Part shown: one piece after another, positions 10,497 to 21,457 of the stretch | How the letters are laid out: each line of letters begins with the position of its first letter | Position numbering within the stretch: position 1 is the first letter of the stretch | Assembly (NCBI GenBank): GCA_026391455.1 | Contig: JAPLEH010000020.1 | Span: 1 to 52,967 of the forward strand | Source of the DNA: Bacteroidota bacterium | GTDB taxonomy: Bacteria; Bacteroidota; Bacteroidia; Chitinophagales; Chitinophagaceae | Length of the DNA: 52,967 nt | Direction: 5' to 3' | Notes under the pieces: generated by a model | What the model saw: only the letters and a program-made list of their open reading frames with translations | What the model was told of the DNA's origin: nothing | Database searches by the model: none | Made by a program: the position numbers and the translations under genes

Positions 10497-11195
10497 ATGA
10501 GACAATCTTTGCTGGTTATTTTTTCAACATGTTTCTTCTTTTTAGCAAGTGGGCAGGAAAAGTCCTATAACCGACCGCCATTGACCGATAAGTGGGATGT
10601 TTATAAAAAACAGGTGATCGCCGATTCCACCAAACGCATGGTGGAACTGAAAAGCTTTATTCCCGGTATCGTATACGATCTCCGGTATGCAACCGTCAAT
10701 AATTTCATGAAGCGTCTGATGTATCCGGCCGGCACCAATACCACCTATCTCCGGCTTGCGGCAGCACAAAACCTGCTGAAAGTACAGCAGGAGTTAAAAG
10801 AAAAAGGATTAGGGTTAAAAATTTACGATGCATACCGGCCTTATGCCGTAACAGTTAAATTCTGGGAACTGATAAAAGATGAACGATATGTTGCCAATCC
10901 TTCCAAAGGAAGCGGGCATAACCGGGGGGTGGCGGTCGACCTTACCATTATTCATTTACAAACCGGCAAAGAATTGAATATGGGTACCGGCTTCGATAAT
11001 TTTTCCGATACAGCACATCACTCCTTTACGCAACTGCCGGAAGAGGTATTACAAAACCGTGCTTTGTTAAAATCGCTGATGGAAAGCAATGGCTTCAGGT
11101 CGCTCGATACGGAATGGTGGCATTATGTGTTGCCAGAGAGCGGCCGGTTTGAAGTACTGGATTTTGAATTCCGTAAATTGAAAAAGCATTTATAA
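10497..11195 (+). CDS. M15-family D-alanyl-D-alanine dipeptidase (VanX/DdpX-like), secreted
   Basis: 232 residues with a signal peptide (LLVIFSTCFFFLASGQ). The zinc-peptidase motifs are present: SGHNRGVAVDLTI supplies the SxHxxGxAxD zinc ligands His and Asp, and DTEWWHY supplies the catalytic Glu and third ligand His. Substrate-binding YDAYRP is also seen. VanX-type enzymes split D-Ala-D-Ala; DdpX-type periplasmic versions recycle D-Ala from peptidoglycan. With a signal peptide and no vanA or vanH nearby, recycling or stem-peptide turnover is more likely than vancomycin resistance. It is divergent from the L,D-transpeptidase (100-base gap) and its last six bases overlap the convergent DUF952 gene. 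Confidence 0.9.
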   Translation: MRQSLLVIFSTCFFFLASGQEKSYNRPPLTDKWDVYKKQVIADSTKRMVELKSFIPGIVYDLRYATVNNFMKRLMYPAGTNTTYLRLAAAQNLLKVQQELKEKGLGLKIYDAYRPYAVTVKFWELIKDERYVANPSKGSGHNRGVAVDLTIIHLQTGKELNMGTGFDNFSDTAHHSFTQLPEEVLQNRALLKSLMESNGFRSLDTEWWHYVLPESGRFEVLDFEFRKLKKHL

Positions 11196-11489
11196 TTCTA
11201 CTACTTCAGTTACCGCATCAATATTAATGGGTCCGTATATATGCGGAAAAGTATCTTTTGTGGTGGGTGACCAGTCAAAAACAAATTTACTGGTGAGCTT
11301 ATCCGTATCAATAACGAGTTTTACTAAACCGGTCTGGCCTCCAAAATAACGTTCAAGCACACCTGCCACCTGGTGATCCTGCGAACAATGAATAAACCCT
11401 TCTTCTTTTAATGAAGGATGCTCATAGAATCCTTGTGCTTTTGCAGCATTCCAATCAGTGGCGGTGGTAACATGGTATATTTCCGGCAT
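11190..11489 (-). CDS. DUF952 family protein
   Basis: 99 residues, cytoplasmic. Matches the DUF952 pattern: IYHVTTATDWNAAKAQGFY near the N-terminus, then EEGFIHCSQDHQV, and a C-terminal FPHIYGPINIDAV. The fold is related to ADP-ribosyltransferase-like small domains, but no activity is established that I know of. It is the last gene of the aromatic operon: its ATG shares one base with the aroC stop (TAATG), so it is probably translationally coupled. Why a DUF952 gene ends this operon is unknown. The 3' end overlaps the convergent dipeptidase gene by six bases. Confidence 0.85.
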   Translation of the reverse strand: MPEIYHVTTATDWNAAKAQGFYEHPSLKEEGFIHCSQDHQVAGVLERYFGGQTGLVKLVIDTDKLTSKFVFDWSPTTKDTFPHIYGPINIDAVTEVVEL

Positions 11490-12538
11490 TATAATATTCG
11501 TTTAATATGTTGTTGAAGCAGCATAAAATCAGCGACTACCAATGCCGTTACCGCTTCTACAATTACGGGTGCACGCAAGGCTACGCAGAGATCATGTCTT
11601 CCTTTGATCGAAAAATTTTCAGTCTGTCCTGTTTCCCAGTTCAGGCTATTTTGTTCTTTTGGGGTGGATGAGGTGGGCTTTACAGCCAGCCTGAACACCA
11701 GTTCGTTGCCATTGCTGATGCCACCAACGATACCACCGGCATGATTGGTCTTTGTTTTTCCGGTCATATCTTCAATCGCATCATTATGTTCGCTGCCAAA
11801 CATGGCGGATGCTGCAAATCCGGTACCGAATTCAACGCCACGTACGGCAGGTATGGCAAATAATATATGTGCGAGTGCGGATTCCAATGAATCAAAATAA
11901 GGTTCGCCTAATCCAACAGGCAATCCCTGTACACGGCATTCAATGATACCACCTACTGAGTCTTTTGCAGCTATGGCTTTTTGTAACCCGGCTTCTGTGT
12001 CTTTTTCTCCACCGATTTCGGTAACGGCGGCTTGTATGGTGATGGGATTGAAAACCTCTCCCTCCAACTCCCTCTCCAAAGGAGAGGGAGAGGTCCCTCC
12101 TGCATTCAACAACTTCTTAGCGATTGCACCTGCGGCAACGATTCCTGTGGTAAGCCGGGCACTGAAATGTCCGCCGCCACGATAGTCTTCAAAACCACCA
12201 AATTTCTGGTGGGCCACCCAATCTGCATGTCCCGGCCTTGGTATGCTTCGTTGTTTGGAATAATCCTCACTCCGGGTGTTTTTATTTTCAAATATCAGTG
12301 TGATGGGAAAGCCGGTAGTAATCCCATTGAATACCCCACTCATTATTTTCGGTATATCATCCTCCTGTCTGGGTGTGGTACCTTTTTGCTGACCTCCTTT
12401 TCTTCGCTCCAGGTCTGGCAGCATATCTTCTACCGTCAGTGCCAATCCTGCAGGGCATCCATCAATAGTAATGCCCACACATTCGCCATGTGATTCTCCA
12501 AAGATGGAAACCCTGAAAAGGCGGCCAATACTATTCAT
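11489..12538 (-). CDS. aroC: Chorismate synthase
   Basis: 349 residues. Converts 5-enolpyruvylshikimate-3-phosphate to chorismate with reduced FMN. Signature motifs are GESHGECVGITIDG (residues 14-27), RPGHADW, YRGGGHFSARLT and the C-terminal GRHDLCVALRAPVIVEA. A 19-residue block at 145-163 (AGGTSPSPLERELEGEV in its core) does not belong to the family: it is encoded by a palindromic insert and sits between AIAKKLL and PITIQAAVTEIGG. The flanking protein reads on in frame, so the enzyme may still work if this is a surface loop. A frame starting at 12568 uses a non-conserved extension, so ATG 12538, which overlaps the aroA stop by eight bases, is preferred. Confidence 0.95.
   Translation of the reverse strand: MNSIGRLFRVSIFGESHGECVGITIDGCPAGLALTVEDMLPDLERRKGGQQKGTTPRQEDDIPKIMSGVFNGITTGFPITLIFENKNTRSEDYSKQRSIPRPGHADWVAHQKFGGFEDYRGGGHFSARLTTGIVAAGAIAKKLLNAGGTSPSPLERELEGEVFNPITIQAAVTEIGGEKDTEAGLQKAIAAKDSVGGIIECRVQGLPVGLGEPYFDSLESALAHILFAIPAVRGVEFGTGFAASAMFGSEHNDAIEDMTGKTKTNHAGGIVGGISNGNELVFRLAVKPTSSTPKEQNSLNWETGQTENFSIKGRHDLCVALRAPVIVEAVTALVVADFMLLQQHIKRIL
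12050..12106. repeat. Palindromic element inserted in frame within aroC
   Basis: About 57 bp rich in ctccctctcc and ggagagggag. Perfect 10-bp arms (12068-12077 and 12081-12090) flank AAA, and an outer acctctccct/agggagaggt pair offers an alternative stem. The element is a multiple of three and leaves the aroC frame open, encoding SPSPLERELEGEV-like residues. Similar CCCTCTCC/GGAGAGGG palindromes are, from memory, common in intergenic DNA of Bacteroidota. Confidence 0.75.
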
Positions 12539-13820
12539 GATAATTAAACTTGTTTGGTAAAGATACATCAGCGCCGAGCTTTTTCAAGTCTTCGTAAAAA
12601 TCCGGATAAGACTTGCTGATCGCCTGTGCTTCTTCGATTACCATTTCACTGTCAGCTTTCAGTCCGGCCACCGCACAGGCCATCGCAATCCGATGATCGT
12701 GGTGCGAATGAGTATCCGCACCTTTTACAAAACCAGTACCATGTACGATGAGTTCATCAGCTCCAATATCTATGGTAACTCCCATTTTATCAAACTCATC
12801 CTGCAGGGTTAGCGCCCGGTTACTTTCTTTATGTATCAAACGGGAAGCTCCTTTGATGGTAGTCTTGCCCTTGCAATAAGCGGCTAATGCAACGAGCGGC
12901 GGGAAAAGATCGGGACAATCGGTAGCATCAAAATAAAAGGCGTCCATTTCCACCGGGTGTAACTGTATTCCTTTTGCATCCATTGCAATACCGGCATTGG
13001 CTGCCATCAATGCATCAATGATCGCTTTATCCGCCTGTGTGGATGTAATGTCGAGCCCCCTTACTGTAATGGGGCCAGCAATAGCACCAGCCACCAGCAG
13101 AAAAGCCCCTCCGCTCCAGTCTCCTTCCACAGTATATTCTATCGAAGAAACAGGTTGTGCAGCTTTATGAAAAACAAAAGACTCATAGTTTCTGTTTTCA
13201 ATTTCAGCAAGTCCAAACTGCCTGATCACATCGAGCGTGAGATCGATATACGGTTTGCTCTTCAGATCATTTACACGAATCGTAACACCCTCAGCGCCTG
13301 CTGCCGCATAGGCCATTAACAGTCCGGTTAAAAACTGTGAACTCAAAGAACCATCCGTATCAATATCGGCCGGCACTAATGGGCCCTGTACGATCAACGG
13401 CAATTTTCCTTCTTTGCTTTGTATCTGGACGCCCAACTGCGGGAGTATCCGATCGAAAAAATCCATGGGTCTGCTACCCAGGCTGCCTTCACCGGTAATT
13501 GTAATAGCCCGCTCACTCAATGCAGCAACAGGTGTAAACATTCTGATGGATAATCCCGATTCACCACCATGTACGGCGTCAGCAACCGGCTTCACGCCCT
13601 GGCTTTCTACCCGGATCATTTCGCCCTCTTGCTGTACATTGGCACCCAATGCTTGTATAATGTTCAAAGCGGCCTTATCATCATTGGAATGACCAGGATT
13701 TCGAATCACTGTTATTCCTTTCCGGATCAAAGCTGCTGCGCAGGCTCGTTGCATGGAACTCTTGGATGCAGGAGCTTGTATATTTCCCTTTAACCGGGAC
13801 GGATGTATTGTTACTTTCAC
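12531..13820 (-). CDS. aroA: 3-phosphoshikimate 1-carboxyvinyltransferase (EPSP synthase)
   Basis: 429 residues, normal length. Joins phosphoenolpyruvate to shikimate-3-phosphate. Visible motifs are APASKSSMQRACAAALI (residues 17-33, the substrate-binding Lys/Ser), GGESGLSIRMFTPVAAL in place of the enterobacterial GNAGTAMR, GSLSSQFLTGLLMA, DATDCPDLFPPLVALA with the catalytic Asp, and KESNRALTL. The C-terminal SHHDHRIAMACAVAGL is typical. The N-terminus shows the usual Bacteroidota variant motifs. Two bases separate the aroB stop from its start and its stop overlaps aroC, so the three are tightly coupled. Confidence 0.96.
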   Translation of the reverse strand: MKVTIHPSRLKGNIQAPASKSSMQRACAAALIRKGITVIRNPGHSNDDKAALNIIQALGANVQQEGEMIRVESQGVKPVADAVHGGESGLSIRMFTPVAALSERAITITGEGSLGSRPMDFFDRILPQLGVQIQSKEGKLPLIVQGPLVPADIDTDGSLSSQFLTGLLMAYAAAGAEGVTIRVNDLKSKPYIDLTLDVIRQFGLAEIENRNYESFVFHKAAQPVSSIEYTVEGDWSGGAFLLVAGAIAGPITVRGLDITSTQADKAIIDALMAANAGIAMDAKGIQLHPVEMDAFYFDATDCPDLFPPLVALAAYCKGKTTIKGASRLIHKESNRALTLQDEFDKMGVTIDIGADELIVHGTGFVKGADTHSHHDHRIAMACAVAGLKADSEMVIEEAQAISKSYPDFYEDLKKLGADVSLPNKFNYHE

Positions 13821-13822
13821 GT

Positions 13823-14842
13823 TTACAGATCTTGTATTATTTTTTCCAATTGGGTTAATGTAATGGATCGTACGACCCCTTTGCCGATCTTTTCCAGCAG
13901 GACATAGTTCATCGTTGTCCGCTCCCGCTTCTTATCCATTTTAAGGATATTGAATACTTTTTGCTTATCAAATTGCGCATAAGCGGGAAGGTTATACTGC
14001 TGTAGCAAATTCACGACCCGTTCCGTTTGTTTGAAACCAGTGAGTTGCTCGGATATATGACAGGCATACACCATACCAATAGCGATGGCCTGTCCGTGCA
14101 GCAATTCATACTGTGTTTCAAGCGCATGCCCCAGTGTATGACCGAAGTTGAGCAAGCGGCGTTCTCCTTTTTCAAATTCATCCCGCTGCACCACTTTTGT
14201 TTTTAATACCGCATTACGTTCAATTAATGTACCGATGGCTTTTGCACTCCGACGATATTTACTCATCGAATATTCTTCCAGTTGCGCAAACATGGCAGCA
14301 TCCTTAATACAGGCATGCTTGATGATCTCTGCAAATCCATTCTCCCAATGTTCTACGGGCAAGGAGGAGAGAAAAGCCATATCGTGCAGAATAAAGGCGG
14401 GCTGGCGGATCACTCCCACCATGTTTTTATATTCTCCCACATCAATGCCATTCTTTCCGCCAATAGACGCATCGACCAGTGCCAGAATGGAAGTGGGAAT
14501 AAACCCAAACCGGATGCCCCGCATATAGATGGATGCTACATAGCCGGTAAGATCGGTGATAACGCCCCCTCCTATTCCTACCAGGGTAGTGTTGCGCCCG
14601 GCTTCCATGTCGATGAGCTGTTCCACGATACTATCCACGGTTGCCTGCACTTTGAATTCTTCGCCGGGTTTTATGACAATGGCATTCCACCCTTTGAAAC
14701 GTTTGGTATGCGCTGCATATACATCCTCGTCGGTGATCAGTACTGTATCATCGGGGCCGGTGATTTTTTTCAATTGACTCATACCTGATAAGAGATAATA
14801 ATCAGATGAAGCATGCGTAAACCGATACGTGAGTTTTTTCAT
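13823..14842 (-). CDS. aroB: 3-dehydroquinate synthase
   Basis: 339 residues. Converts DAHP to 3-dehydroquinate using NAD and zinc, the second step of the shikimate pathway. NAD-binding glycine-rich motif GIGGGVITDLTGYVAS (about residue 90-105), then PTSILALVDASIGGKNGID, the metal-ligand region ENGFAEIIKHACI with Glu, and FGHTLGHALE with the zinc His residues. Sits between aroF-chorismate mutase (40-base gap) and aroA (2-base gap). The dehydroquinate dehydratase, shikimate dehydrogenase and shikimate kinase genes needed between aroB and aroA are not in this window. Confidence 0.96.
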   Translation of the reverse strand: MKKLTYRFTHASSDYYLLSGMSQLKKITGPDDTVLITDEDVYAAHTKRFKGWNAIVIKPGEEFKVQATVDSIVEQLIDMEAGRNTTLVGIGGGVITDLTGYVASIYMRGIRFGFIPTSILALVDASIGGKNGIDVGEYKNMVGVIRQPAFILHDMAFLSSLPVEHWENGFAEIIKHACIKDAAMFAQLEEYSMSKYRRSAKAIGTLIERNAVLKTKVVQRDEFEKGERRLLNFGHTLGHALETQYELLHGQAIAIGMVYACHISEQLTGFKQTERVVNLLQQYNLPAYAQFDKQKVFNILKMDKKRERTTMNYVLLEKIGKGVVRSITLTQLEKIIQDL

Positions 14843-14882: not shown

Positions 14883-15974
14883 TTATTCACTATCCAATAT
14901 CTTCTTCTGGTGATTGATACTTTCCATGTGTACGGCATCAAAATACCGGGTAATGAATTCTTTGCTGAGGCCGATCTTTTCGCCTTTGGTGGTAGCGCGT
15001 TCAATAATCTCATTCCAGCGGTTGGTCTGAAGAATGGTGATATTGTTTTCTTTTTTATACTTACCGATCTGTTCGGCGATCTTCATACGTTGTCCCAACA
15101 CCTGCATCAGTTCATCATCGAGTTGATTGATTTGCTGACGCAGTTTCTCCAGCGCCGCATGGTATTCGGGTGAGCTCACATCTTCTTTGCGCCAGATGAT
15201 GGAATCCAGCATTTCTTTCAATCGTTCCGGTGTTACCTGTTGTTTGGCATCACTCCAGGCATTGTCCGGGTCAATATGACTTTCCACCATCAGCCCGTCG
15301 TAATCGAGGTCAATGGCTTTTTGCATAATTTCAAGCAGTATATCCCTGCGTCCGCAGATATGAGAAGGATCATTGATCACCGGCATATTCGGGTATTTCA
15401 ATTTCATTTCAATGGCCAGGTGCCACATGGGTGCATTGCGGTATTCAGTATTACCATAAGAACTGAACCCACGATGGATAAGGCCGATCTGTTTTACTCC
15501 GGCACGTGCTACGCGCTCCACGGCACCACCCCATAATTCCAGATCAGGGTTGATGGGGTTTTTGATAAGTACCGGTACATCCACACCGCGTAATGCATCT
15601 GCCACTTCCTGTACACTGAAAGGGTTTACGGTAGTTCGTGCACCAATCCATAATACATCCACATCGAAGGTGAGTGCATCCTGTACCTGTTTACCTGTTG
15701 CCACTTCTACCGTAGTGGGAAGGCCCGTTATTTTCTTTGCCTGTTGCAACCAGGGCAATCCTTTTGCACCCACGCCTTCAAACATTCCGGGTTTGGTACG
15801 GGGTTTCCAAATACCTGCCCGGAGCATATCCACTTTACCGGTAGCGGCCAATCGTTGTGCGGTGGCCAATACCTGTTCTTCTGTTTCTGCACTGCAGGGC
15901 CCGCTGATGATCAGGGGACGTTTGTTCCAGGCGGCCTGTACGGATTCACCTGACACTCTTTCTGTTGTTTGCAT
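14883..15974 (-). CDS. Bifunctional DAHP synthase / chorismate mutase
   Basis: 363 residues made of two enzymes. Residues about 15-265 form a KDO8P-type (Ibeta) DAHP synthase: IISGPCSAE, RAGIWKPRTKP, WIGARTTVNPF, LIHRGFSSYGN, DPSHICGRRD and MVESHIDPDNAWSD, which together bind PEP, erythrose-4-phosphate and metal. Residues about 275-360 form an AroQ chorismate mutase helix bundle (LRQQINQLDDELMQVLGQRMKIAEQIGKYK region). The fusion lets prephenate feedback act on the first pathway step and is standard in Bacteroidota. It has its own -7 box just before its ATG, besides being in the pheA operon. Confidence 0.95.
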   Translation of the reverse strand: MQTTERVSGESVQAAWNKRPLIISGPCSAETEEQVLATAQRLAATGKVDMLRAGIWKPRTKPGMFEGVGAKGLPWLQQAKKITGLPTTVEVATGKQVQDALTFDVDVLWIGARTTVNPFSVQEVADALRGVDVPVLIKNPINPDLELWGGAVERVARAGVKQIGLIHRGFSSYGNTEYRNAPMWHLAIEMKLKYPNMPVINDPSHICGRRDILLEIMQKAIDLDYDGLMVESHIDPDNAWSDAKQQVTPERLKEMLDSIIWRKEDVSSPEYHAALEKLRQQINQLDDELMQVLGQRMKIAEQIGKYKKENNITILQTNRWNEIIERATTKGEKIGLSKEFITRYFDAVHMESINHQKKILDSE

Positions 15975-16029: not shown

Positions 16030-16592
16030 TCAGGCTGACACTTGTTTCTTCAGCCTGAACATCACATCTGTTCTCAACACATATTTAGTACCCCGGATTA
16101 CTGCTGCGCCCGTGTGAGGCAATGCATGCAGAAATAAAAGGCGGAACCTGTTTTACCCTGCACCGCTTTATGATCGAATACAGTTTGACCGCCTGTATAC
16201 GCTTCATTGAGGTAAAACAAAAGGGTGAAATAACTTGCTTCTTCCTCATTGCGGATGTAAGACTCATCGCAGTGACGGGCAAATTGCTGACCGGGTTCGT
16301 AACGGTAAAAGCGGAAGAGTTCATTTAAGCCAATGGCTATGGAGTTACCATATACCGGAGGCACCCAATCTTTTACCCGTTGCCAAAGTTGCTCAGCGAG
16401 TACAGTGTCTTTATACATAACACGCTTATTATTCCGGATATGGGTTATCAATCTGGCGCCCCGCTCCGTATTAATGGTTGCTGCTTTATAACCGCGTTTC
16501 TCACTTGCAGCAATAAGGGTATCGCAAAAGTCCTTTGGCAAGACCTCCTCCTTCTCCACGATCCAATCTGCTTCTATATAGTTTGCTGACAT
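16030..16592 (-). pseudogene. 2OG-Fe(II) oxygenase gene with a frameshift
   Basis: The frame from ATG 16592 codes for a prolyl-hydroxylase-type 2OG-Fe(II) oxygenase up to residue 151, including the first iron ligands in ARHCDES (His107, Asp109). After GKTGSA it runs into 13 unrelated residues and a stop at 16098. Skipping one base near 16140-16142 opens the frame that reads LLFLHALPHTGAAVIRGTK and then YVLRTDVMF, giving the missing distal iron-binding His and 2-oxoglutarate-binding Arg, and ends at 16030. The family's expected C-terminus is therefore present but out of frame. This is either a real one-base deletion (gccctt to gcctt) or a sequencing error. As read, the short product lacks the third iron ligand. 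Lies seven bases after tyrA; substrate unknown. Confidence 0.85.
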
Positions 16593-16599
16593 TATGTAT

Positions 16600-17451
16600 T
16601 TATTTAATGATCTTTCTGATCAGATTAGCTTCCTGAATTATTTTCAGTAATTCTTTTTCATCCTCTGATTCAATGCTGGTGCAAAAGCGTTGCAACTGTG
16701 CAATATGCGCCTTCAATACATCCAGTACATTCTCTTTGTTCTGCATAAATATCGGCACCCACATGGCGGAGTTACTTTTGGCCAGCCGCACCGTGCTTTC
16801 AAAACCTGCACTGGCCAGTTCGAAGATGGCATTCTCTTCTTTCTCTTTTTCCAATACCGTATTGGCCAATGCAAAAGAGGTAATATGCGAAATATGGCTC
16901 ACATAGGCCGCGTGCAGGTCATGCGCATTGGCTTCCATTTCCAGCAGGCGCATGCCGATCTTATTGTACATATATCTCGTCCATAGAAGCGCATCTTCAT
17001 CGCTTTCTTCCGCATTACAAATAATAACTGCCTTATTTTGATAAGCATCGCGTACTGCCGCTTTCGGACCGCTGTACTCGGTACCCCACATCGGGTGTGT
17101 GGCCACATATCTCCCTCTTTTAGGATGGCCTTTTACGGCGCCGGTGAGCATAGACTTGGTGGATCCCATATCAATCACGATCTGTTCATCAATTTTATCC
17201 AGAATCACTGGCAATAATGATACCATGCTGTCTACCGGGATCGCAAGTATGATTACCTCTGATGCAGCAATGGCTTCTTCCAATGGCAGCATTTCATCTA
17301 CCAACTCCAGTTCAAGGGCCGTGGCAGCATGTTCAGGATTTGCATCCACCCCGGTAAGCCGGGAGGATAGTTTCTTTTCATGCAATTGCAGGGCCAGTGA
17401 TCCACCGATCAGTCCAACGCCGATAATGCATATTTTTTTTCGCTGCTTCAT
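16600..17451 (-). CDS. tyrA: Prephenate dehydrogenase
   Basis: 283 residues. Oxidatively decarboxylates prephenate to 4-hydroxyphenylpyruvate, the tyrosine branch. N-terminal Rossmann motif CIIGVGLIGGSLA (residues 8-20), then VIILAIPVDSM, DMGSTKS, the family signature THPMWGTEYSGP with the active-site His, and HISHITSFALA. The C-terminal dimerisation helices continue to the end. There is no ACT or chorismate mutase domain; the mutase activity comes from the aroF fusion downstream. ATG start at 17451. A 73-base gap with AT-rich attatc repeats separates it from the aminotransferase stop. Confidence 0.95.
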   Translation of the reverse strand: MKQRKKICIIGVGLIGGSLALQLHEKKLSSRLTGVDANPEHAATALELELVDEMLPLEEAIAASEVIILAIPVDSMVSLLPVILDKIDEQIVIDMGSTKSMLTGAVKGHPKRGRYVATHPMWGTEYSGPKAAVRDAYQNKAVIICNAEESDEDALLWTRYMYNKIGMRLLEMEANAHDLHAAYVSHISHITSFALANTVLEKEKEENAIFELASAGFESTVRLAKSNSAMWVPIFMQNKENVLDVLKAHIAQLQRFCTSIESEDEKELLKIIQEANLIRKIIK

Positions 17452-17524: not shown

Positions 17525-18700
17525 TCAAATTCTACTAATTGCTTCCTCCAATTTTTCTTCTGTACTACACAGGCTTACTCTGATGTACCGATTGCCAGCA
17601 CTGCCGAATATGCCTCCGGGTGTGATGAATACATTACTGTTGTACAACACCTGATCACTCAATGCGAACCCATCTTGATATCCGGGAGGAATAGCCGCCC
17701 ATACAAACATGCCGGCCTGATCATGGGTAAATTCACAGCCCAGTTTTTCCAGCAAGGCAAACACTTTCTCTCTTCGTATACGGTAAGTATCGTTCACGGC
17801 ATCATGCCAATCCTGGCCCAACGTGAGTGCTTTGGCAGCAGCCAGTTGTACCGGCAAATACATACCACTGTCCATATTACTTTTAAATCGCAATACTTCT
17901 TCGATCCGTTCTGCAGCACCACATAACATACCTACCCGCCATCCTGCCATATTGTGACTCTTGCTGAGCGAGTTCAGCTCTATGGCACATTCCATAGCAC
18001 CCGGTACAGATAGCAGGCTCATCGGGTTATTGTTCAGTATAAAGGAATAAGGGTTGTCATGTACCAATAAGATTTGATGCTGTCTTGCAAATAGCACCAG
18101 CTTTTCAAAAAGGGTATTATCCGGCAATTTACCGGTGGGCATCTGCGGATAGTTTACAAACATGAGTTTTACCTTATCCAGTTTCTTTGTTGCCAGCTTT
18201 TCAAAATCCGGTTCATAGTTATTTTTCTCTGTGAGTTTATATTCCACACATTCACCACCGGCCAGTTTTACAGCGCTGGTATAGGTAGGATAGCCGGGAT
18301 TGGGCACGAGTACCTTGTCCCCCTTATCGAGGTAGGTCATACAAATATGCATGATCCCTTCCTTGCTGCCGATCAGGGGTAATACTTCCGTATCCGGATT
18401 CAGCGAAACCCTGAACCAATGCTGGTACCAATCGGCCATGGCGCGGCGCAATACCGGTGAACCTTTATACGATTGGTACGCGTGTACGGATGGCATTGCG
18501 CTTTCTTCCTGCAATACCCTGATCACTTCCGGATGCGGGGGCATATCGGGGCTGCCAATCCCGAGGTTGATAATATTTTTCCCCTCCTTATTGAGGGATT
18601 CGATTTCCCTCAGTTTTTGGGAAAAATAATACTCGCCTATCCCTTTCAATCGTTTACTGGTCTTTATCATATACGTTTCTCCTGTATTATTTACATTCAT
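17525..18700 (-). CDS. Class I/II PLP-dependent aminotransferase, probably aromatic
   Basis: 391 residues, fold type I. NLGIGSPDMPPHPEV near the N-terminus, YQSYKGSPVLRRAMADWY, NPGYPTYTSA, the PLP-ring Asn/Asp region VNYPQMPTGKLPD and LLVHDNPYSFI, and the PLP lysine in ELNSLSKSHNMAGWRVGM. Between pheA and tyrA it most likely transaminates phenylpyruvate and 4-hydroxyphenylpyruvate to phenylalanine and tyrosine; the substrate is inferred from context. The ATG at 18700 overlaps the pheA stop as ATGA. Other possible starts are ATG 18706 and ATG 18670 (MIKTSKRLKGIGEYY). Confidence 0.9.
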   Translation of the reverse strand: MNVNNTGETYMIKTSKRLKGIGEYYFSQKLREIESLNKEGKNIINLGIGSPDMPPHPEVIRVLQEESAMPSVHAYQSYKGSPVLRRAMADWYQHWFRVSLNPDTEVLPLIGSKEGIMHICMTYLDKGDKVLVPNPGYPTYTSAVKLAGGECVEYKLTEKNNYEPDFEKLATKKLDKVKLMFVNYPQMPTGKLPDNTLFEKLVLFARQHQILLVHDNPYSFILNNNPMSLLSVPGAMECAIELNSLSKSHNMAGWRVGMLCGAAERIEEVLRFKSNMDSGMYLPVQLAAAKALTLGQDWHDAVNDTYRIRREKVFALLEKLGCEFTHDQAGMFVWAAIPPGYQDGFALSDQVLYNSNVFITPGGIFGSAGNRYIRVSLCSTEEKLEEAISRI

Positions 18701-19575
18701 TTCCATTGCCCTCTTTTATATACACCGTATACTTTTAAGGCAGCGGTGAGCGGTTGTATCTTTTTGATCACCCGTTTGAATTGTTCTGCTGTGTCGAATT
18801 CCATGTCGGCATGAAAACTGTATTTGAAATTACTGCCGGGTATAGGAAAACTCTGCAGCTTACTCAGGTTTATTCCTGCTTCCGCAATTTGTGTAAGCAC
18901 TTTAGCCAGGCTTCCTTTGGAGTGGTCTGTATGAAAATTAACAGTGGCCTTATCTGCATCTGCCGGCACCACTACATTTTCCTGCCGTTGTAATATGAGG
19001 AAGCGGGTATAATTATTCTTCATAGTATGGATGTTGGGCGACAGCACCTCGAGTCCGTAAAGCTCTGCTGCCAACCGGCTGGCAATAGCCGCCACATGCC
19101 GGCTTTTATGCTGATGAATATATTTTGCGCTCAATGCGGTATCATCTGTTTCCACCAGTTTCCATTTATACTGGTCGAGAAAGGCATAACATTGCTGTAA
19201 GGCCATGGTGTGTGAATGCACTTCACGGATATCTTGCAGTGTTACACCGGGATTCACCAGCAGGTTTTGACGTATCTGCAAGTAAATCTCTCCGGTAATA
19301 ACAAGGTTACTTTTTTGCAGTAAATTATAATTGGGCAAAATGCTTCCGGCAATGGAGTTTTCGATCGCCATCACGCCTCCATTACTTTCTTTCTTCGAAG
19401 CAGCGATCCTTACCACCTCACGAAACGTATCACAGGGAATCACGACTGTTTCTTTACCCAAAAATAATTGTGCAGCCACCTGGTGAAAACTGCCTTCATA
19501 CCCTTGTATGGCCCAACGTCCTGCGCCGATGCTCTTAGCTGTATTTGCGTGATTCTTTTTCATTCCTGTTTGCAT
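18697..19575 (-). CDS. pheA: Prephenate dehydratase with ACT domain
   Basis: 292 residues. Converts prephenate to phenylpyruvate, the phenylalanine branch. Catalytic domain: AIQGYEGSFHQVAAQLF near residue 22, GVMAIENSIAGSI, VHSHTMALQQC and the conserved NNYTRFLIL. The C-terminal ACT domain (about 205-285) begins near KGSLAKVLTQIAEAGINLSK; its ligand motif reads LQSFP where enterobacteria have ESRP. A longer frame begins with TTG inside the upstream hairpin, so ATG 19575 (or 19563) is chosen. First enzyme gene of the operon, directly behind a Phe/Tyr-rich leader peptide and a terminator, which suggests control by attenuation. Confidence 0.95.
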   Translation of the reverse strand: MQTGMKKNHANTAKSIGAGRWAIQGYEGSFHQVAAQLFLGKETVVIPCDTFREVVRIAASKKESNGGVMAIENSIAGSILPNYNLLQKSNLVITGEIYLQIRQNLLVNPGVTLQDIREVHSHTMALQQCYAFLDQYKWKLVETDDTALSAKYIHQHKSRHVAAIASRLAAELYGLEVLSPNIHTMKNNYTRFLILQRQENVVVPADADKATVNFHTDHSKGSLAKVLTQIAEAGINLSKLQSFPIPGSNFKYSFHADMEFDTAEQFKRVIKKIQPLTAALKVYGVYKRGQWK

Positions 19576-19590
19576 TATTGACTGACAAGT

Positions 19591-19619
19591 AAAAAAAATC
19601 CCGGCCAATTTGGCCGGGA
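19591..19619 (-). terminator. Attenuator terminator of the pheA/aro operon
   Basis: On the minus strand a 9-bp stem (19619-19611 with 19607-19599, tcccggcca/tggccggga) with a tiny loop is followed by eight T (19598-19591), a textbook intrinsic terminator. It lies between the leader peptide stop (19649) and pheA (19575). Its 5' arm (GTCCCGGC, 19620-19613) can instead pair with GCCGGGAT at 19673-19666 inside the leader ORF. That gives an antiterminator, so the hairpin is likely conditional rather than just the end of the helicase transcript. Confidence 0.85.
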
Positions 19620-19648
19620 CTCTTTATGCTGATTTTTAGTTGTTCATA

Positions 19649-19732
19649 TTAATTCAACAAAAGTGATCCCGGCTTCCCAGTAAAATAGAAGTAATAAAAA
19701 TAAAATCCGGAATATGTTTTTGTTGTTGTCAT
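19649..19732 (-). CDS. Phe/Tyr-rich leader peptide of the aromatic operon (pheL-like)
   Basis: A 27-codon ORF, ATG at 19732-19730 and TAA at 19651-19649. Codons 10-17 read FYFYYFYF, eight aromatic codons in a row, and codon 7 is also Tyr: four Phe and five Tyr in 11 codons. This is the hallmark of an attenuation leader, comparable in design to enterobacterial pheL. Leader RNA segments 1 (UUCCGG, 19712-19707), 2 (19673-19666), 3 (19620-19613) and 4 (19607-19599) can pair 1:2, 2:3 or 3:4. Segment 2 starts eight bases after the aromatic block. Stalling there would free segment 2 to pair with 3 and prevent termination; reading through to the stop would favour 3:4. The ATG follows the -7 box by seven bases, so the message is probably leaderless. 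Confidence 0.85.
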   Translation of the reverse strand: MTTTKTYSGFYFYYFYFTGKPGSLLLN

Positions 19733-19739
19733 TCTTAAA

Positions 19740-19769
19740 CAAATATAGTTTTCCTGTGCTGTAATGCAA
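19740..19769 (-). promoter_or_regulatory. Promoter of the pheA/aro operon
   Basis: Minus-strand TTG (19769-19767), 19 bases, then TATATTTG (19747-19740). This fits the Bacteroidota consensus TTG-N19-TAnnTTTG exactly. Transcription should start a few bases later, at or just before the leader-peptide ATG at 19732. It lies 14 bases after the helicase stop, so the operon has its own start and its own conditional stop. Confidence 0.8.
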
Positions 19770-19783
19770 GCAATTTGCCGGAA

Positions 19784-21457
19784 TTATTTTTTTCTGTCGC
19801 CTCCGGATGCTGCATCATTCATGCGGATTTTGCGGCCCCGGTAGTTTTTACCATCAATGGCTTTGATCATTTTTTTACCAGCTGAAGGTTCGATTTCGAT
19901 CCAGCTTGTCATTTCTTTCATATCTATCCGGCCGAGCACTTCTTTTTTCAAGTCGCTCATATCCAGAATAAATTGGAGGAAGCTCGCTTTATAGAATCCG
20001 TCTTTGGTGCCGAGATTCACAAACAAGCGTTGGTAATTACCACCGCCGCCGAATTGTCTTCCTTTGGTATCCCGGTCGCGGCTACCGACAGCAGTCCTGT
20101 CACGTTTATCACCAGCTCTGCGGTCATCGCCGCGCATATTCAGATCGGCAGCGTTTTCATAATATTTTAAAAAGCGGTCAAATTCCAATGCGGCCACTCT
20201 TTGCAATATTTCTTCTTTATCAATAGCGGCAAACTTTTCGCGCAAAGTGGGCAGATAGGTTTCATATTGCCCGTGGCTGATATCTGCCTGCAGCATCTTA
20301 TCAATGAAATGAAAAAATTGTTTACGGCATACATCTTTACCCGAAGGAATATCCATTTTATGGACCTTTGTTTTCACAATTCGTTCGATCTGACGGAGGC
20401 GGTATGTCTCTTTTGGTGTTACGATAGACACGGATACACCACTGTTTCCAGCACGGCCTGTACGACCGCTCCGGTGGGTATAAACTTCCACATCATCGGG
20501 TAATTCGTAGTTAATGACATGGGTGATACCGGTTACATCAATACCTCTTGCTGCCACATCGGTTGCTACAAGGAGTTTCACACTTTTATCGCGAAACAGA
20601 CCCATTACTTTATCGCGTTGCCCCTGCGTAAGGTCGCCGTGAATGGCGTCAATATCATATCCTTCGCGGGTCAGTTTTTCGGCTATATCCTGTGTATCGG
20701 CTTTGGTACGGGCAAACACAATACCATAAATGCCGGGATTAAAATCGATAATGCGTTTTAATACTTCATACCGGTTATGATGCTGTGTGGCATAATACTG
20801 GTGATCAATATTGGCAGAACCTTCATTGGCCTTTCCGATGGTGATCTCGAAAGGATTGGTCATATACCGCTTGCTCACCTGCCGTATTTCGGCGGGCATG
20901 GTGGCGCTGAAGAGCCAGGTACTCTGGCGATTCGGTGTATTCTTTAAGATAAATTCGATATCTTCTTTGAAACCCATGTTGAGCATTTCATCGGCCTCAT
21001 CTAATACCACATAATGGATATTTTCGAGGTTGATGGCCTTCCGTTCGATCAGGTCGATCAGGCGGCCGGGTGTGGCCACTACGATATGGGTGCCTTTCTT
21101 TAGGTCGCGGATCTGCAACGAGATGGAAGTACCACCATAAACAGCCGTAACCTGAACGGGTATTTTTTTGTTTTTGAATTTCTCCAGGTCGCTGGTGATC
21201 TGTAAACAGAGTTCGCGGGTGGGGCACACAATCAGTGCCTGGGGAAAACGGTTTTCTTTAACGATGAGTTGCAGGAGGGGCAGGCCAAAAGCGGCTGTTT
21301 TGCCGGTACCTGTTTGGGCCAACCCGATAAAATCTTTGGTACCCTGTAATAAAACGGGGATTGCTTTTTCCTGAATGGGCGTAGGTTGTGTAAACCCTAA
21401 TACCTGAATAGAATGGAGCAGGCCTTCCTCCAGCCCGAGGGCTTCAAAATTGTTCAC
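19784..21457 (-). CDS. DEAD-box ATP-dependent RNA helicase with DbpA-type RNA-binding domain
   Basis: 557 residues. All helicase motifs are present in order: Q motif FTQPTPIQ, I AQTGTGKT, Ia PTRELCLQ, Ib TPGR, II DEAD, III SAT, IV IVFARTKAD, V ATDVAARGID and VI HRSGRTGRAG. A basic, disordered linker (GDDRRAGDKRDRTAVGSR region) leads to a C-terminal DbpA-like RRM (LFVNLGTKDGF to INGRKIRMND-like end), which in relatives binds 23S rRNA. Likely roles are ribosome assembly or RNA remodelling, possibly cold-related (DeaD/CsdA group). Start chosen at GTG 21457 (VNNFEALGL); the longer TTG frame to 21511 runs through a -7 promoter box. A TACCTTTG box at 21516-21509 gives a 5' leader of about 45 bases. 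Confidence 0.93.
   Translation of the reverse strand: MNNFEALGLEEGLLHSIQVLGFTQPTPIQEKAIPVLLQGTKDFIGLAQTGTGKTAAFGLPLLQLIVKENRFPQALIVCPTRELCLQITSDLEKFKNKKIPVQVTAVYGGTSISLQIRDLKKGTHIVVATPGRLIDLIERKAINLENIHYVVLDEADEMLNMGFKEDIEFILKNTPNRQSTWLFSATMPAEIRQVSKRYMTNPFEITIGKANEGSANIDHQYYATQHHNRYEVLKRIIDFNPGIYGIVFARTKADTQDIAEKLTREGYDIDAIHGDLTQGQRDKVMGLFRDKSVKLLVATDVAARGIDVTGITHVINYELPDDVEVYTHRSGRTGRAGNSGVSVSIVTPKETYRLRQIERIVKTKVHKMDIPSGKDVCRKQFFHFIDKMLQADISHGQYETYLPTLREKFAAIDKEEILQRVAALEFDRFLKYYENAADLNMRGDDRRAGDKRDRTAVGSRDRDTKGRQFGGGGNYQRLFVNLGTKDGFYKASFLQFILDMSDLKKEVLGRIDMKEMTSWIEIEPSAGKKMIKAIDGKNYRGRKIRMNDAASGGDRKK

Follow-up and report, generated by a model that had tools for sequence, protein, structure and literature searches.

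Ribosome-mediated attenuation is a classic mechanism of transcriptional control, and in E. coli the pheL leader senses phenylalanine only. In Bacteroidota, translation mostly initiates without Shine-Dalgarno sequences. The Bacteroid-trp RNA (Rfam RF01692) is a predicted cis-regulatory RNA of Bacteroidetes (PMC2864571) and, standing ahead of the trp operon, has been termed a trp-leader-like element (PMC6414381). In Flavobacterium psychrophilum, pheA and hisG are preceded by structured 5′ elements that give clues to leader-peptide attenuation (PMC9723704), and in Bacteroides thetaiotaomicron, small ORFs in long 5′ UTRs have been described as 'reminiscent of leader peptides' (PMC7366714). The initial annotation of the locus studied here knew of no described case in this phylum, a statement that has to be withdrawn given that Bacteroid-trp (PMC2864571) and the pheA and hisG elements (PMC9723704) are already in print. 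Full-text literature searches, judged by title and start of abstract among the matches listed, returned neither a Phe/Tyr leader nor same-signal tandem leader attenuators in Bacteroidota; the surveys that PMC4833913 cites from Lyubetsky, Seliverstov and Lopatovskaya predate this comparison and lie outside it.

We analyzed a 52,967-nt contig of a Chitinophagaceae bacterium (JAPLEH010000020.1, hereafter the window). Reading down its minus strand from 19769 to 19591, a Bacteroidota-type promoter is followed by a leader ORF, an intrinsic terminator and then pheA. The leader ORF encodes the 27-codon peptide MTTTKTYSGFYFYYFYFTGKPGSLLLN (19649..19732, minus strand), with its ATG at 19732 and its stop codon ending at 19649, and carries the Phe/Tyr sensor block FYFYYFYF at codons 10-17 (19682..19705, minus strand). 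Re-reading the sequence thus confirmed the block and stop codon given in the initial annotation, as well as the eight T ending at 19591 and followed by pheA.

A scan with the window's PheA retrieved 80 related loci, from records titled Chitinophagaceae, Chitinophagales, Sphingobacteriales, named genera or only Bacteroidota. Counting as a leader any short ORF before pheA with at least seven Phe/Tyr in 10 codons and an ATG, GTG or TTG start, we found one at all 79 loci with upstream sequence (L066, whose contig ends 48 nt upstream, was excluded). Cultured relatives bearing it include Terrimonas ferruginea DSM 30193 (L023) and Lacibacter luteus TTM-7 (L062). Counting the window, 79/80 leaders have a terminator called after their stop codon, the exception being L029, where the upstream piece is too short for the caller. 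Conservation of both a Phe/Tyr-rich ORF and a terminator upstream of pheA in relatives had been proposed as a check on the initial annotation, and both are kept. ATG-started ORFs with at least seven Phe/Tyr in nine codons occur at 76/80 of these near loci, compared with 2/1174 random stretches elsewhere in the same loci. One record, L038, is titled Williamsia sp. and bears this Bacteroidota operon and leader; Williamsia is an actinobacterial name, and the title probably reflects a mislabelled bin.

Behind the leader lies an operon of eight genes by NCBIfam annotation, rather than the nine initially counted, all on the minus strand. It begins with pheA, prephenate dehydratase (18697..19563; best hits below cut-offs), and a PLP-dependent aminotransferase (17525..18706) whose best hits, below cut-offs, are LL-diaminopimelate aminotransferases and whose position suggests an aromatic role. 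These are followed by tyrA, prephenate dehydrogenase (16600..17451; NF006307 above cut-off), a small Fe(II)-dioxygenase-like protein (16098..16592; weak NCBIfam hit), and DAHP synthase fused to chorismate mutase (14883..15974; NCBIfam best hits below cut-offs). The last three genes are aroB, 3-dehydroquinate synthase (13823..14842; TIGR01357 above cut-off), aroA, EPSP synthase (12531..13820; TIGR01356 above cut-off), and aroC, chorismate synthase (11489..12568; NF003793 and TIGR00033 above cut-off); the gene after aroC (10497-11195) is on the opposite strand. The order pheA, aminotransferase, tyrA, DAHP synthase, aroB, aroA is kept in 66/66 loci with more than 9 kb downstream, and aroC in 64 of them. 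The dioxygenase-like gene, which separates tyrA from DAHP synthase, was found in the same place in one of 66 relatives (L007; tblastn E 1e-15, a search that a divergent copy could escape).

The promoter proposed in the initial annotation, TTG-N19-TATATTTG, was confirmed, with the -33 element TTG at 19767..19769 and the -7 element TATATTTG (TAnnTTTG) at 19740..19747 on the minus strand. TAnnTTTG occupies positions -12 to -5 in F. psychrophilum (PMC9723704), and this published position places the predicted start at 19735, which would leave a 5′ UTR of 3 nt. By the same reasoning, a box 4 nt from the ATG corresponds to no 5′ UTR and one 7 nt away to a 3-nt 5′ UTR. This gap is 7 nt at the window leader and, across the family, 4 nt in 20 leaders, 7 nt in 25 and 4-10 nt in 75/80, with a strict TAnnTTTG box in 71/80, although the script used here favoured start codons following a box. 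As a control, among the 221 remaining ATGs of these stretches, 12 have a box 4-10 nt before them. A TTG at a spacing of 17-21 accompanies the box in 64 of the 78 leaders with a called box (window included), versus 22/234 shifted controls. Transcription would therefore begin about 3 nt before the leader ATG. The leader ORF had been described as leaderless; the start is indeed predicted very close to the ATG, but a 3-nt 5′ UTR would make it near-leaderless. Leaderless mRNAs make up just 5.5% in F. psychrophilum (PMC9723704).

Four competing segments can be traced through the leader: segment 1 precedes the aromatic block, segment 2 follows it within the last codons of the ORF, and segments 3 and 4 form the terminator. 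On the minus strand, segment 1 (19707..19725) comprises CAACAAAA (19725-19718) and ATTCCGG (19713-19707) and pairs with segment 2 (19654..19673), which comprises GCCGGGAT and CTTTTGTTGA; segment 3 (19613..19632), the antiterminator partner of segment 2, comprises TCAGCA, AAAG and GTCCCGGC. The 15-bp terminator hairpin 3:4 (19593..19625, minus strand, -22.9 kcal/mol) runs into a U-tract of eight T (19591..19598, minus strand); the minus strand has no other terminator-like site within 19560-19900. The core motifs of the initial annotation all stand where it had placed them (TTCCGG 19712-19707, CCGGGA 19672-19667, TCCCGG 19619-19614 and CCGGGA 19604-19599), although two of its helices turned out longer. 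Its 1:2 helix is present in the minimum-energy fold (ATTCCGG 19713-19707 with CCGGGAT 19672-19666) and is extended by CAACAAAA (19725-19718) pairing with TTTTGTTG (19662-19655), and its 2:3 helix exists but spans 19673-19654 with 19632-19613 at -20.4 kcal/mol. The leader alone folds at -16.2 kcal/mol. By pattern, a CGGG-type segment 2 is present in 76/80 near leaders and missing from four.

Covariation between 2:3 and 3:4, the other check that had been proposed, was assessed in a plain MAFFT alignment not fitted to structure (79 rows from 81, with L029 and L066 left out). The 2:3 antiterminator is paired in 87.6% of cells, with 43 double-change cells versus 13.7 in shuffles, and the 3:4 terminator in 90.7%, with 38 versus 10.5. 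The 1:2 helix is paired in 80.7% of cells, with neither its pair-type count nor its double-change pairs above shuffles. Counting compensatory events by parsimony on one quick PheA tree, with a re-paired null of 300 draws, we obtained 19 branch events for 2:3 (null mean 2.5, highest 11; 0/300 reach 19) and 21 for 3:4 (null mean 3.35, highest 13; 0/300 reach 21), so that both helices show compensatory changes on a tree. Support for 1:2 is weaker than for these two, at six events (null mean 1.6; 2/300 reach six). Well-supported branches by themselves retain 1-3 independent pairs per base pair among those listed, too few for a sign test. When partners were swapped between species, without correction for kinship, 0/1000 swaps were as stable as the real pairing for each of 1:2, 2:3 and 3:4, compared with 70/1000 for the control pairing 1:3.

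We took a translating ribosome to cover 12 nt past the first base of its A-site codon. With the A site modelled at codons 10-16, the 2:3 helix stays intact at -20.4 kcal/mol or better; at codon 17 it is shortened (-14.8 kcal/mol), at codon 18 it falls to -5.3 kcal/mol and is no stronger beyond, and from codon 22 no 2:3 remains. In 62/76 leaders, 9 nt separate the last aromatic codon from segment 2, about where the leading edge of a ribosome would begin covering segment 2. Counting codons back from segment 2 (78/80 leaders counted, window included), the Phe/Tyr fraction is 0.91-1.00 at codons 4-10 and 0.99 at codons 4-6, dropping to 0.05 at codon 3, and leaders carry a mean of 1.12 Phe/Tyr codons beyond the 13-nt limit set in this analysis. 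Because Phe and Tyr codons are both present in the permissive stretch of 78/78 leaders, a shortage of either amino acid should induce.

These features point to a ribosome-mediated transcription attenuator sensing charged tRNA-Phe and tRNA-Tyr, a reading to which we assign a probability of roughly 90% from sequence evidence. The locus has what characterizes this class: a sensor-codon leader, a terminator, mutually exclusive 2:3 and 3:4 helices, a 1:2 helix (with weaker support) and a sensor placed accordingly. Its parts and their conservation can be read directly from the sequence, as can the geometry and the compensatory changes that both exclusive helices have undergone. From these we infer the start site, translation of the leader, stalling and a response to Phe and Tyr supply, which would fit together as follows. 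Transcription would start about 3 nt before the leader ATG, with the first ribosome close behind RNA polymerase. When Phe and Tyr are both plentiful, the ribosome would clear the block and cover segment 2, so that 3:4 forms and transcription stops near 19591. When either is short, the ribosome would wait with its A site at codons 10-16 (or at codon 17, with a shortened helix), disrupting segment 1 and freeing segment 2; 2:3 would then form while segment 4 is still unmade, and transcription would continue into the aro/phe/tyr operon. If the leader is not translated at all, 1:2 would form and lead to the terminator.

Other explanations for parts of this arrangement can be weighed against the same data. 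The same strand carries a DEAD-box helicase gene whose end lies at 19784, with no other terminator-like site between it and pheA, and the attenuator's terminator would stop helicase transcripts too, so the hairpin could be taken for a plain terminator of that gene with a short ORF beside it by chance. The helicase adjoins, however, at only 34 of the 75 loci with enough sequence (five were too short), whereas the leader is present at all 79 testable loci. Because it is kept at the 41/75 loci where the helicase lies elsewhere, the leader travels with pheA; segment 2, moreover, covaries with segment 3. Conservation of the leader where the helicase is absent from its side refutes helicase termination as the sole function, and we consider this account the least probable of all, with hardly any chance of being correct. 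The preference of the initial annotation for leader-peptide attenuation over a plain helicase terminator is accordingly supported by the 79/79 relatives, by persistence without the helicase and by the compensatory changes in 2:3 and 3:4.

Alternatively, the leader could act through the peptide itself, by nascent-chain arrest or in trans, rather than through codon-specific stalling, as might be suggested by a C-terminal PGMLLL common in the near set and by peTrpL of Sinorhizobium, which works in trans (PMC7298713). Yet the C-terminus shifts with the reading frame (SRESFC, PGSLC, PGASC) while the nucleotides stay unchanged, which led us to reject a trans-acting peptide as the main function, and the wider set of leaders described below differs in C-terminus but keeps the Phe/Tyr block; we regard peptide action as very unlikely. 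A structured 5′ element preceding a biosynthetic operon would also be expected of a protein- or metabolite-binding riboswitch or a T-box, with the ORF as a passenger. Here, the alignment columns that are conserved correspond to the codon block and to the competing arms. Searching the whole window gave no match to any Rfam family at its gathering score, and the Phe_leader covariance model (RF01859) scores 28.5 bits on the leader (E 0.005), below its gathering score of 55 bits. On these Rfam results we rejected a riboswitch or T-box, whose probability we place slightly lower still than that of a peptide effect.

The attenuator reading can be followed across the class. In a class-wide sample, PheA matched in 57 of 197 genomes, and 56 loci besides the window were scored for ORFs that start with ATG, run for 8-45 codons, contain six or more Phe/Tyr in nine codons and lie within 420 nt of pheA. 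Such an ORF is present at 37/56 loci, whereas reverse complements gave 0/56 and 20 shuffled sets averaged 0.25 and peaked at 2; at five Phe/Tyr in nine codons the counts are 37 loci, three reverse complements and a shuffle mean of 2.35. The same scan found no such ORF at 19/56 loci, and a strict caller found no terminator after 6 of the 37 leaders. Among the 31 leaders with a called terminator, 27 pair their own 2:3 better than shuffles at p ≤ 0.05, and 0/2000 swaps of partners match the real pairing. The near-leaderless start does not hold class-wide, as the box lies within 14 nt in only 2/37 wider leaders and, where seen, is farther off.

Matches to our model R1 were recorded in 56/395 genomes, a tally that overstates the true matches because 9 of the 16 we opened read as plain terminators (L158, from the window's own genome at C19:147174-147308, and L160-L167; E 7e-5 and above). 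The other seven are leader ORFs before pheA or DAHP synthase (L159, L168-L173). The model also misses real leaders, such as that of genome G034, which was found by the scan and has no R1 match. A leader ORF in a genome of another class (L169:770-915) lies directly before DAHP synthase and reads FYFYWFYF, a block in which all three aromatic amino acids are combined.

We also found two Phe/Tyr leader ORFs in series before pheA in two other families, here named after genomes G169 and G132. PheA matched in 29/41 genomes of the G169 family and 27/41 of the G132 family, and tandem leaders are present at 10/30 loci of the former (two of these are pieces of one gene, giving 9/29; L085, L086, L246-L251 and L266) and 10/27 of the latter (L274-L277, L279-L282, L287 and L294). 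L091 of the G132 family was scored as one module under an 80-nt spacing rule, yet holds a second Phe/Tyr-rich ORF. Taking these 19 tandem loci together with L091, both terminators were called in 17/20. In 15 of these 17, segment 2 pairs better with its own terminator than with its neighbour's when averaged over the two leaders (means -16.3 versus -11.6 kcal/mol), the neighbour's terminator arm being the better partner at L279 and L287.

These observations would fit a broader reading that we hold at even odds: the class may share an old dual Phe/Tyr sensor with the stalled ribosome as a ruler, and the module may have been duplicated in series in at least two other families, with own matched terminators, so that the same shortage is read twice for steeper, less leaky attenuation. 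The ruler, as part of this joint reading, would consist in the block ending no more than about one codon away from the point at which the leading edge reaches the antiterminator arm, an arm that in Chitinophagaceae would lie inside a near-leaderless ORF. If whole modules stand in series, each with its own terminator, the shortage would have to be read twice before operon transcription.

Sister leaders occur in the window's own genome (G000). A Trp leader ORF, MKMINNNIWWWHITLRGM, lies with a terminator before trpE (L185, G000:C25:30000-33000, 2409-2465, reverse complement; gap 7), a His leader ORF, MQNFNHNHHHHLLHRSRP, before hisG (L187, G000:C63:90000-92500, from 1770, reverse complement; gap 7), and a branched-chain leader ORF, MLKNIIHNVIASAAAIIIVVVIIISSNGGGA, with AAIIIVVVIII-like runs and a terminator (L184:2567, G000:C53; gap 16), before a gene judged by eye to encode a branched-chain aminotransferase (ilvE) and then ilvD. 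In the family, trpE matched in 59/60 genomes and hisG in 49/60; among the best 30 loci for each, WWW leaders are present at 30/30 trpE loci (reverse-complement control 1/30) and His leaders at 29/30 hisG loci (control 0/30). The gap between box and ATG is 4-10 nt in 18 of the 29 His leaders and 14-18 nt in nine, with no box in two, making them near-leaderless only in part; 20 of the 30 Trp leaders examined have no box within 40 nt, so a near-leaderless start is not supported there. Among the same-genus genomes G559-G566, some of them incomplete, HisG was found in 0/8 and IlvD in 2/8, and amino-acid auxotrophs around this genome seem likely.

If this account is correct, Bacteroidota would gain a concrete set of leader-peptide switches, for Phe/Tyr, Trp, His and probably Ile/Val/Leu, in one genome. 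Having one switch respond to two amino acids and govern DAHP synthase, aroB, aroA and aroC together with both terminal branches would be a simple way of wiring the pathway. With a near-leaderless leader ORF, one can test how ribosomes load on such an mRNA fast enough to control termination, and the same-signal tandem attenuators of the relatives raise a clear dose-response question.

Among described systems, the enterobacterial pheL/pheA attenuator (Rfam RF01859) resembles this one in its sensor-codon leader ORF, competing helices and terminator before pheA. Unlike pheL, the present leader alternates Phe and Tyr codons, precedes an operon spanning DAHP synthase, aroB, aroA, aroC, pheA and tyrA, holds segment 2 inside the ORF and has a predicted nearly leaderless start. 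Bacteroid-trp concerns Trp rather than Phe/Tyr, and its model (RF01692, gathering score 49 bits) has no match in the window or in 19 genomes (its own and 18 relatives), even though the window's own genome has a WWW leader. The F. psychrophilum elements precede the same genes in the same phylum, and the passages describing them mention no codons, segments or wide spread (PMC9723704); the present leader is probably the counterpart of its pheA element. The passages on the B. thetaiotaomicron small ORFs name no amino-acid operon with them (PMC7366714). In Sinorhizobium meliloti, the trpL leader RNA starts with the ATG of its ORF (PMC7298713), but that system is alphaproteobacterial and senses Trp. 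Salmonella mgtCBR is also a tandem case, combining two leader ORFs with serial attenuators (PMC3641672); its attenuators respond to different signals, whereas the tandem modules reported here both carry Phe/Tyr blocks. Beyond these known cases, the locus would add dual Phe/Tyr sensing over most of a pathway, a near-leaderless start and a segment 2 inside the ORF, and to this come putative leaders for Trp, His and branched-chain amino acids elsewhere in its genome, as well as the tandem modules of two other families.
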